The notes under the pieces are model-generated. The model saw only the letters and a program-made list of their open reading frames with translations, was not told the origin of the DNA and made no database searches. This document shows, in pieces, positions 15,138 to 50,042 of a stretch of 64,000 nucleotides of DNA. Within the stretch, counting starts at the first letter, position 1. Each line of letters begins with the position of its first letter. The stretch is from Albula goreensis (lineage: Eukaryota > Chordata > Actinopteri > Albuliformes > Albulidae), in NCBI GenBank assembly GCA_022829145.1, contig CM040753.1, positions 6,007,384-6,071,383 of the forward strand. Reading direction: 5' to 3'. The position numbers were made by a program, and so were the translations under genes.

Positions 15138-15600
15138 GATTCAATCAAATTCATTTAGCGTCTTTCAGGGCATATGCAATTTAATCAAAACAGGCTTTCG
15201 TCTTTTAAAGAGCATAGCTATTGAAACAAAACGGGCTTTCATCTCTTTAAAAGCATAGCTATTGAAACAAAATGGGCTTTAGTCTCTTTAAAGGAATATG
15301 CAGTTTCATCAAAACTGACTTTACACTACAGCAAACTTTTATTTTATTGAGACATGCAAACACATCCTTTGAAATGATTTCTTTTTGTTTTAAGATGGAA
15401 CAGGATATCACTTTACAGTGACCAGAGTTAGTTTTGTTTGAATTGCATTTGAGACCATTTTGGACCTGATTCAATCAAAGGTACTTTAAAGGGCATATGG
15501 CATGTAGCACAACCAAAGAAAATTATGGTGTCACGTAAAGTCTGTTTTGATTGAATTGCAGGTGGAATTAAAGGGACTAAGTGCGTTTGATTGACTAGTC
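15138..15600 (+). mobile_element. Inverted-repeat element, family A copy 2, enlarged by a tandem 41-bp repeat
   Basis: It begins GATTCAATCAAATTCATTTA and ends GGGACTAAGTGCGTTTGATT. Near the left end a 41-bp segment (gcatatgca/gcatagct ... aaaac(a/g)ggcttt ... ctttaaa) occurs three times in tandem, at about 15170-15210, 15211-15251 and 15252-15293. The core TTTTATTGAGACATGCAAAC with CATCCTTTGAAATG is shared with other copies. A further GATTCAATCAAAGGTACTTT at about 15470 suggests a nested or partly duplicated terminus. Confidence 0.75.
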
Positions 15601-26595: not shown

Positions 26596-26826
26596 TCAGG
26601 TGGATCCAAAAAAGCACGTTTATTCTCTTTAAGGCACATACAAATCAATCAAAACAGACTTTACAGAATGACATTATTTTCTGTCATTATATTTCTGTGT
26701 TATATTTTATGAGAGACAAGCAAACATGTCCTAGCTGGTGTCCACAAAGACAGTCAGTTAAAGTCAGTCTTTGATTAAATTGCAGCTGGCCCTTAAAGGG
26801 ACTAAGTGTGTTTGACTGAATCTGGT
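26596..26826 (+). mobile_element. Inverted-repeat element, family A copy 4
   Basis: The left terminus is degraded (GGATCCAAAAAAGCACGTTT) and is followed by TCTCTTTAAGGCACATAC and AATCAATCAAAACAGACTTT. The right end has CAGTCTTTGATTAAATTGCA, CCCTTAAAGGGACTAAGTGT and GTTTGACTGAATCTGG. The core GAGAGACAAGCAAACATGTC is present. Confidence 0.8.
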
Positions 26827-34396: not shown

Positions 34397-34740
34397 GGGC
34401 GAGATTCAATCCAACACACATAGGTCGGGATTCAGTCAACGTTTGTTGAGACAGAAGGCCGGTATTTAATCAACAATTGTCCTTTGACAATAATAGGGAA
34501 AGTTTTTGTTCTTTTTGCACAAACACAGTTCAGCTAAACATTCCACAAACACCTGAATTACTTTTTCAAACTGTATTTGGTAGATAGGGAAAACTTTGTT
34601 AAGAAGCTATTCAGTATATTCTGCGTTGTAAAAATGATCAAGATTTAACATCCTATTGATTCAGGGATCTGAATTAAATCATTACCTAGGGTGAGTTAAA
34701 TAAATAAATGAAAACTATTGCAATGAGATCTGAATCACCA
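34397..34740. mobile_element. Possible degraded inverted-repeat element(s)
   Basis: It starts with GAGATTCAATCCAACACAC, a family A-type end. After about 20 bp comes GGGATTCAGTCAACGTTTG and GGTATTTAATCAACAATTG. The far side has GATTCAGGGATCTGAATTAA. These look like termini of one or two related elements, but a full inverted-repeat pair could not be aligned. Confidence 0.4.
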
Positions 34741-38395: not shown

Positions 38396-38517
38396 TTAAC
38401 TATTTCAGGTACATCATTTGGGATTCCGATATTGCATAACATTTGGAGGATGATTAAAATGATTTGGAGCGATCAGCCAGCTGCGAAAAGGCAAAATAAA
38501 ACGCGAGGACAAAATGG

Positions 38518-38746
38518 GATAAATTCAATCAAATGCAACCTCTATATGTCACATGCAATTAAATTAAAACAAACTTTACTGGAACACGGTAATCTCATTT
38601 AGAACTGGAAAAAACCACACATTCTGAAGTACTTGTGTGCTTGACTCTGATACAATATAATGTACTCAGAGAACATGATGTTGTGATGTAAAGTCTGTTT
38701 CCTCCTAAAGAGACTAGGTGTGTTTGATTGGATCTAGCCCTAGGTT
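38518..38746 (-). mobile_element. Inverted-repeat element, family A copy 6 (minus orientation)
   Basis: The left end is AAATTCAATCAAATGCAACC then ATGCAATTAAATTAAAAC and AAACTTTACTGG. The right end is GTTGTGATGTAAAGTCTG, CCTAAAGAGACTAGGTGTGT and TTGATTGGATCTAGCCCTA. The asymmetric GTTGTGATGTAAAGTC motif is the complement of the left-side motif of other copies, so this copy is reversed. Confidence 0.75.
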
Positions 38747-39356: not shown

Positions 39357-39366
39357 ATATATATAT

Positions 39367-39413
<47 letters not shown>
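39357..39413. repeat. (TA)n-(TG)n microsatellite
   Basis: Short TATATATG, then about 22 TG repeats. Confidence 0.93.
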
Positions 39414-39472: not shown

Positions 39473-39602
39473 TTGTTGACACTGGAGTTTGTCTTCCAAA
39501 GGACATGTTTGCTCGTCTCCACTGAAATAGAATATACTCTGAGAATATCGTTGTTGCGATGTAAGGAAACCGAGTGTGTTTGCCTGAAACTAGCCCTACG
39601 TG
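39473..39602 (-). mobile_element. Inverted-repeat element, family A copy 7, partial, minus orientation
   Basis: CTTCCAAAGGACATGTTTGC followed by TCGTCTCCACTGAAATAGAA is the reverse complement of the family core. GTTGTTGCGATGTAAGGAAA then GAGTGTGTTTGCCTGAAACT and AGCCCTA is the terminal region. The sequence after this terminus passes directly into the 26-bp minisatellite, whose unit is this terminus. Confidence 0.7.
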
Positions 39603-41050
39603 CATTTAATTGAATTTAGCTCTCGATCTGTTTGATCTAACCCTATTTGTGTTTGACTGAATCTAGTGAGCACTATGTGTGTTTGATTGAATGTAAGCCT
39701 ATGTGTGTTTTAAATGACTGTGAGACTATGTGTTTGATTGAATGTAACCCTATTTGTGTTTGATTGAATCTGACCCTATGTGTGTTTGATTGATTGTAGC
39801 CCTGTGTGTGTTTGATTGAATGTAGCCCTATGTGTGTTTGATTGAATGTAGCCCTGTGTGTGTTTGATTGAATGTAGCCCTTTGTGTGTTTGATTGATTG
39901 TAGCCCTATGTGTGTTTGATTGAATGTAGCCCTATGTGTGTTTGATTGAATGTAGCCCTGTGTGTTTGATTGAATGTAGCCCTGTGTGTTTGATTGAATG
40001 TAGCCTTTGTGTGTTTTATTGAATGTAGCTGTGTGTGTGTTTTATTGTGTGTGTTTTATTGAATGTAGCCCTGTTTGATTGTGTGTTTTGATTGAATGTA
40101 GCCCTGTGTGCGTTTGATTGAATGTAGCCCTGTGTGTGTTTGATTGAATGTAGCCCTATGTGTTTTTGATTGAATGTAGCCCTATGTGCGTTTGATTGAA
40201 TGTAGCCCTATGTGTGTTTGATTGAATGTAGCCCTATGTGTGTTTGATTGAATGTAGCCCTGTGTGTGTTTGATTGAATGTAGCCCTATGTGTGTTTGAT
40301 TGAATGTAGCCCTGTGTGTGTTTGATTGAATGTAGCCCTATGTGTGTTTGATTGAATGTAGCCCTATGTGTTTTTGATTGAATGTAGCCCTGTGTGTTTG
40401 ATTGAATGTAGCCCTGTGTGTGTTTGATTGAATGTAGCCCTGTGTGTGTTTGATTGAATGTAGCCCTGTGTGTGTTTGATTGAATGTAGCCCTATGTGTG
40501 TTTGATTGAATGTAGCCCTGTGTGTGTTTGATTGAATGTAGCCCTGTGTGTGTTTGATTGAATGTAGCCCTATGTGTGTTTGATTGAATGTAGCCCTGTG
40601 TGTGTTTGATTGAATGTAGCCCTGTGTGTGTTTGATTGATTGTAGCCCTATGTGTGTTTGATTGAATGTAGCCCTGTGTTTGATTGAATGTAGCCCTGTG
40701 TGTGTTTGATTGAATGTGCGTTTGATTGAATGCCCTGTGTTTGATTGATTTGATTGAATGTAGCCCTGTGTGTGTTTGATTGAATGTAGCCCTATGTGTG
40801 TTTGATTGAATGTGTGCCCTATGTGTTTGATTGAATGTAGCCCTGTGTGTGTTTGATTGAATGTAGCCCTATGTGTGTTTGATTGAATGTAGCCCTGTGT
40901 GTGTTTGATTGAATGTAGCCCTGTGTGTGTTTGATTGAATCTGGCCGTATGTGCAAAGATTAAATGTAGCCCTATGTGTGTTTGATTGAATGTAGCCCTG
41001 TGTGTGTTTGATTGAATCTGGCCGTATGTGCAAAGATTAAATGTAGCCCG
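39603..41050 (+). repeat. Minisatellite, 26-bp unit derived from the family A terminus
   Basis: About 1.45 kb of tandem copies of TGTGTGTTTGATTGAATG then TAGCCCTA, roughly 45-50 units. Early units (39603-39760) are diverged (ATTTAATTGAATTTAGCTCT, GTTTGACTGAATCTAGTG); the central array is nearly uniform, with CCCTA/CCCTG alternation and shortened 22-24 bp variants. The last 130 bp carry a 78-bp (three-unit) higher-order repeat containing CTGGCCGTATGTGCAAAG, seen twice near 40940 and 41018. The unit equals the outer end of family A elements (GTGTGTTTGATTGAATCTAG + CCC). A 266-codon minus-strand frame arises only because the array lacks stops in that phase. Confidence 0.96.
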
Positions 41051-41888
41051 ATGTCTTGTTTTCCTGACTGTGACTGGGAGTTCACTGTGGCAGGACAGAC
41101 CTGGCGTGATTCCACCGGGGGGTAGAGTGGGGTTAAGCTGGCCTGAGGTCCCATAAATATGCACAGAGTGCCCACAGGCTGCCAGCAGTTTTTATCAGTG
41201 AAACACTAGGCCTGTCTGTTCTGGGCATGGCAGCGATGGGGAGGAAGAGAGGGAAAATGTCTCAAAAAGTCAACTGATTGCAAAGTACAATCGTGAATTG
41301 TGAAATCAAAATATGCTAGATAAAAGTTTGAGTAGCTTATTAACTCTCTGCAAAAAAATGATGATGAATCTCCTTATGATTTATTCAGATGCCTTCTTCT
41401 TCACCCCTTTCCATACAACTGCACTTTCAGAATCCTTTGTGAGGTGTGTGAGCTGAGCAGTAACAGCAGCGCTCTCTAAATTCAGAGCCAGCTTCCACAC
41501 AAAGAATGGAGAGATAAGCTGATCTGCAAACCGCTGCATCTACACGGGCCACCTGAAGCCCGTCCAATTTATAATAATCCCTGCGGTGAGGCGTCGCGGG
41601 TGGCGGCATCGCGGAACCGTGTTTGTGTTACCACGGCGATACACCGGCCCTGAGAAATTGACTTGAGATCAATGGTGAACTCTGCCATACTGATTTTAGA
41701 TATGCCCACCGCATCTATCAGGGCTGCAGCTATCACAGGGCCTGAGCGTCTGCTGCAGGACCACGCATGTGCTCTCTAATTGCTTTGTTCTCCGTGTCAG
41801 TGAGTGCAGCCTGCCTGCACTGCCATGGTTACCGTTACTTTAGATTCCGGTCAGAATGGGAGGCAAAACAAAGCCGCTCCACAATAGA

Positions 41889-49809: not shown

Positions 49810-50042
49810 TCACGCTAGATTCAGTCAACTGCACCTAGTCCTTAAAGAATAGTTTTGGTTCAGTGAAAACACACTCTAGTTTTTTTAAAGAATATGCTAA
49901 ACTACTTCGAAATGTGTCCTTGTCTCCACGCATACTTAAAGAAACATTATGTTTCAATTGCTCAAAGCCTATATGCTTTTAAAGCCAATAACAGTCTAGC
50001 TTGGGTCCCAGCCGAAGTGTGTTTGATTGAATTCCACCCTAC
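49810..50042 (+). mobile_element. Inverted-repeat element, family A copy 8
   Basis: The left end is TAGATTCAGTCAACTGCACC then TAGTCCTTAAAGAATAG. The right end is GCCTATATGCTTTTAAAGCC and GTGTGTTTGATTGAATTC. The core GAAATGTGTCCTTGTCTCC is in reverse form compared with some copies. It is well diverged. Confidence 0.65.

Follow-up and report, generated by a model that had tools for sequence, protein, structure and literature searches.

The window, that is, the whole 64-kb stretch of Albula goreensis DNA that was analysed, contains a minisatellite of ~1.45 kb joined to what is left of a short inverted-repeat element. Of the element, the remnant (39494-39618, forward strand) retains the right end and some of the core, the left half being missing. 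It was detected with nhmmer (positions 117-247 of a model of 253, 65.6 bits) and its tip runs straight into the array, confirming the partial copy that an earlier note on this DNA had described as abutting the repeats. TRF applied to the 64-kb window gave a unit of 26 bp in 54.3 copies at 39641-41030, with a score of 1721 and the consensus CCCTATGTGTGTTTGATTGAATGTAG, and by wrap-around alignment ~58 units could be followed from 39572 to 41049. All of them read on the forward strand. The element's own tip is the first unit (39572-39596), with an identity of 0.81 to the tip consensus and 0.77 to the array consensus. Then come diverged proximal units, some with the ancestral AATC (39597-39776, from the raw sequence and the wrap-around alignment; the unit at 39644 was read from the raw sequence and not from the alignment string), a homogeneous body with consensus TATGTGTGTTTGATTGAATGTAGCCC and a few irregular units (39777-40921, TRF and wrap-around alignment) and a diverged distal edge in which two units have the ancestral AATC (40922-41049, wrap-around alignment). 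In unit size and copy number the array is a minisatellite, and the repeat adjoining it is homologous and dispersed. Three units formed no hairpin as DNA on either strand, and the whole window gave no structured-RNA match in Rfam at gathering thresholds. A (TG)24 microsatellite is located at 39366-39413, ~80 bases upstream of the element remnant, and TRF found many long TG, CA and TC runs in the window.

When the genome (932 Mb in 208 contigs, the window being part of contig C13) was searched with 39473-39640 as query, at least 34 matches were found, at least 33 of them elsewhere and all of these to the core part of the query. The 33 genome copies that were fetched, oriented and aligned gave a profile of 253 positions, describing an element of ~250 bp whose two ends align as inverted repeats over ~65-69 positions. 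The element consensus ends in CTTAAAGAGACTAAGTGCATTTGATTGGGTCCTGGCC, with AAGTGTGTTTGATTGAATCTAGCCC as a frequent variant end. A further genome search for the element retrieved at least 28 matches, and with the profile ~11 pieces were recognised in the window. The element is short, has terminal inverted repeats and is dispersed in many copies, as expected of a MITE. In 19 copies with both ends, no target-site duplication emerged across the many offsets and lengths tried (best z 2.6), and for this reason we call it MITE-like only, its status as a transposon resting on the copy number and the inverted repeats. The neighbouring copy at 38517-38740 (forward strand, pattern and profile match) has a single tip at 38718-38740, one mismatch away from the 20-base terminus, and another copy at 49817-50039 (forward strand, profile match) carries a two-unit tip, its second-tip score being 21 versus 12 for the 99.9% null. 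The match at 34400(-) turned out not to be an element terminus but an isolated pair of tip units (34397-34440, reverse strand), beside which pattern and profile searches detected no element.

A second part of the element, a 41-bp inverted-repeat module located further in than the tip, is also found in short arrays, more rarely than the tip. One of them lies in the window, with 3-3.5 copies overlapping element matches (15154-15298, reverse strand, TRF), and another at 955-1166 of locus L030. A pattern for the module matched six times in the genome, three of them in one array on contig C24, versus 0 for the control. The module is tandem in some copies of the element, but most copies have short simple ends. 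At two loci, L078 (C17:5253000-5257300) and L018 (C12:37418625-37421820), a tip array is directly adjoined by two element copies in head-to-tail order and, going by these, whole elements may at times be tandem.

The array unit TATGTGTGTTTGATTGAATGTAGCCC corresponds to the outermost 26 bases of the element end (TAAGTG...GCC), in agreement with the match to the outermost terminus claimed in the earlier note. Allowing up to three mismatches, GTGTGTTTGATTGAATCTAG occurs 53 times in the window and never in 100 dinucleotide shuffles; the sites are within the focal array and at 26806, 34400(-), 38718, 39574 and 50988(-). The richness of the window in TG microsatellites, with one at 39366-39413, could suggest that an unrelated TG-rich minisatellite just happens to adjoin the element, but both the 53 matches against none in the shuffles and the recurrence of tandem tips beside element ends at many loci leave practically no room for such a coincidence.

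The 41 full-length units of the focal array have a mean pairwise identity of 0.943. Similarity falls little up to a distance of 20 units and is 0.92 at 30 units apart; since neighbouring units are no more alike than units ~20 apart, slippage and longer-range exchange are indistinguishable here. Identity to the tip consensus was 0.62-0.88 for the proximal units (39572-39776) and mostly 0.85-0.92 for the homogeneous middle, with its few irregular units. The first units had been described as the most element-like and diverged, and they are indeed diverged, but by identity they are not the most element-like; what they have kept is the ancestral C of AATCTAG, which is found only near both array edges (on the right at 40922 and 40999), the middle reading AATGTAG. 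Likewise, the homogeneous centre and the decay of the left edge were both found, but the right edge is decayed too and consists of a 77-bp block of three units followed by a partial second copy of the block (40922-41049). Growth and homogenisation in the middle, with the edges spared, would leave this pattern. While the units are 0.943 alike, the adjoining element body has diverged by 0.296 from the family consensus, indicating that the present units are much younger than the insertion.

Tandem tips are not a peculiarity of this locus. Eight array units used as genome query gave, among the matches listed, 49, of which nine fall in the focal array and the rest elsewhere, and several other arrays were found with units similar to but distinct from the focal ones. 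In twelve array loci whose flanks were read, the element core was directly inside the array in seven and ~160 bases away in one. A pattern of two tip cores 12-18 bases apart had 251 matches in the genome compared with 11 for the reversed pattern, and narrower two-tip patterns had 85 vs 5 and 79 vs 0 in the reversed control. Counted by hand, the lists of the narrower patterns correspond to 25 loci (two of them doubtful, and with four unrelated loci left out) and 26 loci. Tip-like units formed a chain in 61 of the 63 loci examined. Counting an element end as adjacent when it lay between about -100 and +160 bases from the chain, one was found beside the tandem tips in 40 of the 63, a left end in 21 and a right end in 19. 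This adjacency count misses L078 and L026, where the chain finder took other runs and the junctions were seen separately. At 15 loci the element's other end was testable too, and only one of them showed a second tip there. Without seven doubtful loci the figures become 33 adjacent (17 left, 16 right) and one of 11. Among element copies selected by their core a second tip was found at 2 of 76 ends, one of them marginal, and within the window at 2 of 18 element ends, one being the focal one. TRF run on 53 core-selected loci detected no tip-unit array overlapping an element, and one 12-bp array. The architecture leading from tip to array recurs, then, at many loci, on the left or the right of the element and seldom on both sides. 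The family termini elsewhere match the unit, their agreement having been set beforehand as a point on which the proposed origin could fail, and other element copies do carry tandem termini. The idea of a one-locus record of an element terminus turning into a tandem array is therefore upheld as regards the origin and not as regards the single locus.

The arrays appear to be separate from each other. In the 18 arrays with four or more units, identity was 0.903 within arrays and 0.648 between them, with units that are locus-specific, and 183 of the 207 units had their nearest match within their own array, indicating that each long array expanded, or was homogenised, on its own. An element end adjoins twelve of the 18 (the focal array, L018, L019, L023, L025, L078, L101, L102, L119, L120, L122 and L137). 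The other six (L031, L036, L075, L099, L100 and L121) have no detectable adjoining element, and a test of their flanks for a decayed one gave nothing convincing (z 1.9 on the L side of L036 and 2.1 on the R side of L075). These six arrays may stand for a later stage, after loss of the element. In one of them, L121 (C15:3264750-3265900), the tip-core array has a period of 23-24 bp and not of 26. As unit and element end are one sequence, their similarity alone gives no direction, and the 26-bp repeat could be the older of the two, the element having captured it or having been built from it; a review, in the portion of it that we draw on, proposes captured tandem repeats for other MITEs (PMC12628747). 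We consider this order of events very improbable, given that 74 of the 76 core-selected ends carry a single tip, that arrays vary by locus (0.648 between) and that divergence is greater in element bodies than in array units.

How the duplication starts was approached through the two-unit tips. The first comparison used 37 pairs, some of them misparsed, and was repeated on 28 clean ones (L027, L035, L068, L070, L071, L115, L116, L117 and L118 were dropped, L104 and L114 re-cut). In these 28, units from one locus resembled each other slightly more than units from different loci did (0.646 vs 0.618, p 0.026), with an excess also in the 12 bases before the core (p 0.0044), but there is also a position-dependent difference between inner and outer units, which none of 500 permutations reached. 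In the 18 pairs adjacent to an element there was no excess within loci, neither in the core and 3' part (0.682 vs 0.685) nor in the 8 bases before the core (0.444 vs 0.445), suggesting that the duplications are old, of about the age of the family, and that some may come from source copies. As these two-unit tips are as diverged as unrelated tips, the arrays probably grew late from old seeds, and the first duplication may predate the focal insertion. We also compared the element bodies in 29 of the remaining 33 loci, those with enough body sequence (of the 40, L030, L066, L068 and L115-L118 were left out as marginal or internal-module loci, L117 being a tip pair with a period of 28). Bodies of tandem-tip elements share slightly more changes (ratio 1.01 vs 0.91 and 0.84, permutation p 0.03), with 0.959 for left-left pairs and 1.043 for left-right pairs. 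The shared body changes are by themselves a weak signal for a distinct subfamily of tandem-tip elements, and such a subfamily was not retained.

From these data a source element with an already two-unit tip could have been spread by transposition, the duplication taking place once or a few times and the arrays being later local expansions. The register of 26 bp that is nearly always alike, the position-specific differences between inner and outer units, the element-adjacent dimers without within-locus excess and the slightly higher sharing of changes by tandem-tip copies (1.01 vs 0.91 and 0.84, p 0.03) all agree with such an inherited dimer. It sits uneasily, however, with the similar numbers of left and right ends (21 and 19), mostly one end per element (opposite end 1/15), with left-left pairs sharing no more changes than left-right pairs (0.959 vs 1.043), with the lack of a second tip at 74 of 76 core-selected ends and with the weak within-locus excess of the 28 clean dimers (p 0.026, or 0.0044 for the 12 bases before the core). 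We regard inheritance of the dimer as a serious possibility, if a little short of even odds. Tentatively, and at odds clearly below even, it could be proposed that the tip is a portable minisatellite seed, in which a one-sided duplication in the fixed 26-bp register has occurred repeatedly and independently, perhaps via breakage or repair at the terminus during transposition. If so, one genome holds the series from one tip to two, several and tens of units and to orphan arrays. Overall we favour old seeds that arose more than once, with local growth coming late.

The sequence outside the tip provides another hint about where growth took place. Single tips have a weak common motif, A.TGTCTTT, immediately outside them, and the flank beyond the last tandem unit resembles it more than the further-out flank does (51 loci, p 1.7e-4 against pooled flanks). 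With the 43 loci kept after leaving out misparsed ones and those then carrying another unit, p was 4.5e-4 against pooled flanks and 0.019 against the loci's own further-out flanks. In the focal array, the flank beyond the last unit (41050-41059, forward strand, GATGTCTTGT) is like this motif and ranks 11 of 100 control flanks, individually not significant. This is modest evidence that array growth may have taken place inboard of the former edge of the element. The outside sequence also resembles the tip start 24 bases back (z 6.8 at offset 24 and 3.3 at offset 26, both values being inflated because the copies share one consensus). The resemblance would suit slipped mispairing between noncontiguous repeats, though the period normally seen is 26. 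With z inflated and the stronger signal at an offset other than that period, a seed in the form of a built-in direct repeat was retained as no more than a lead.

Taken together, we believe, with a probability of roughly 85%, that the focal array is a minisatellite grown in place from the outermost 26 bp of an old copy of an abundant and short MITE-like element; growth in place is what we infer from a single genome, of one individual and one species. The process would have had two stages. In the first, an old duplication of the tip at some element ends, probably more than once, would have produced a two-unit seed. Later local growth and homogenisation, long after the insertion, would constitute the second, through replication slippage and/or unequal exchange or gene conversion. 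Nothing met in this analysis of the repeats hinted at a role for the host.

Several known systems resemble the one described here, as far as the portions of the sources cited go. The closest of the cases compared is the foldback transposon Tetris of Drosophila virilis and its TIR-220 satellite, where tandem repeats from part of the inverted terminal repeat gave longer arrays of variable copy number (PMC4079207). The units described for Tetris are of ~220 bp inside long TIRs, with target-site duplications of 8-10 bp (PMC4079207), whereas here it is the outermost 26-bp tip of a 250-bp element that is repeated, in many short independent arrays and with no target-site duplication found; one of the Tetris type was absent in 19 two-ended copies. 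The tandem 41-bp module also recalls foldback elements of the Tetris and Galileo type. The reviews in their cited parts trace satellites to inverted repeats and internal parts of MITEs, and among their examples are Xstir and miDNA4 of Xenopus, satellite or tandem arrays linked to vertebrate MITEs (PMC9659126, PMC12628747). In those two it is internal MITE sequence or a captured repeat that is involved, according to the same reviews, and here the outermost tip. Tandem arrays of CMITE elements in corals have been ascribed, in the part of the report used, to replication slippage, but they repeat whole elements and not only the tip (PMC2872659). In humans, transposable elements are the source of 23% of minisatellites and satellites, certain element regions being hotspots of tandem repeats, and their initiation is mostly unexplained, the postulated mechanisms accounting for only 6% of the transposon-derived arrays in the portion of the survey considered (PMC3389668). 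That survey spans all elements, and here one inverted-repeat element offers a graded series from one tip to tens. Among the titles listed by the literature searches, none was recognised as dealing with this element or with an array of 26-bp tips. Minisatellites derived from transposon ends are already known as a kind, and the focal array by itself is an ordinary example; the point of interest is the replicated series within one genome, where the tip occurs singly, in pairs and in short or long arrays at dozens of sites, frequently next to an element body that can serve as an age reference. The start of minisatellites is poorly explained, and such a natural series would be useful for studying how repeats begin, in that the step from one unit to two (initiation) could be measured apart from the step from two to many (growth).
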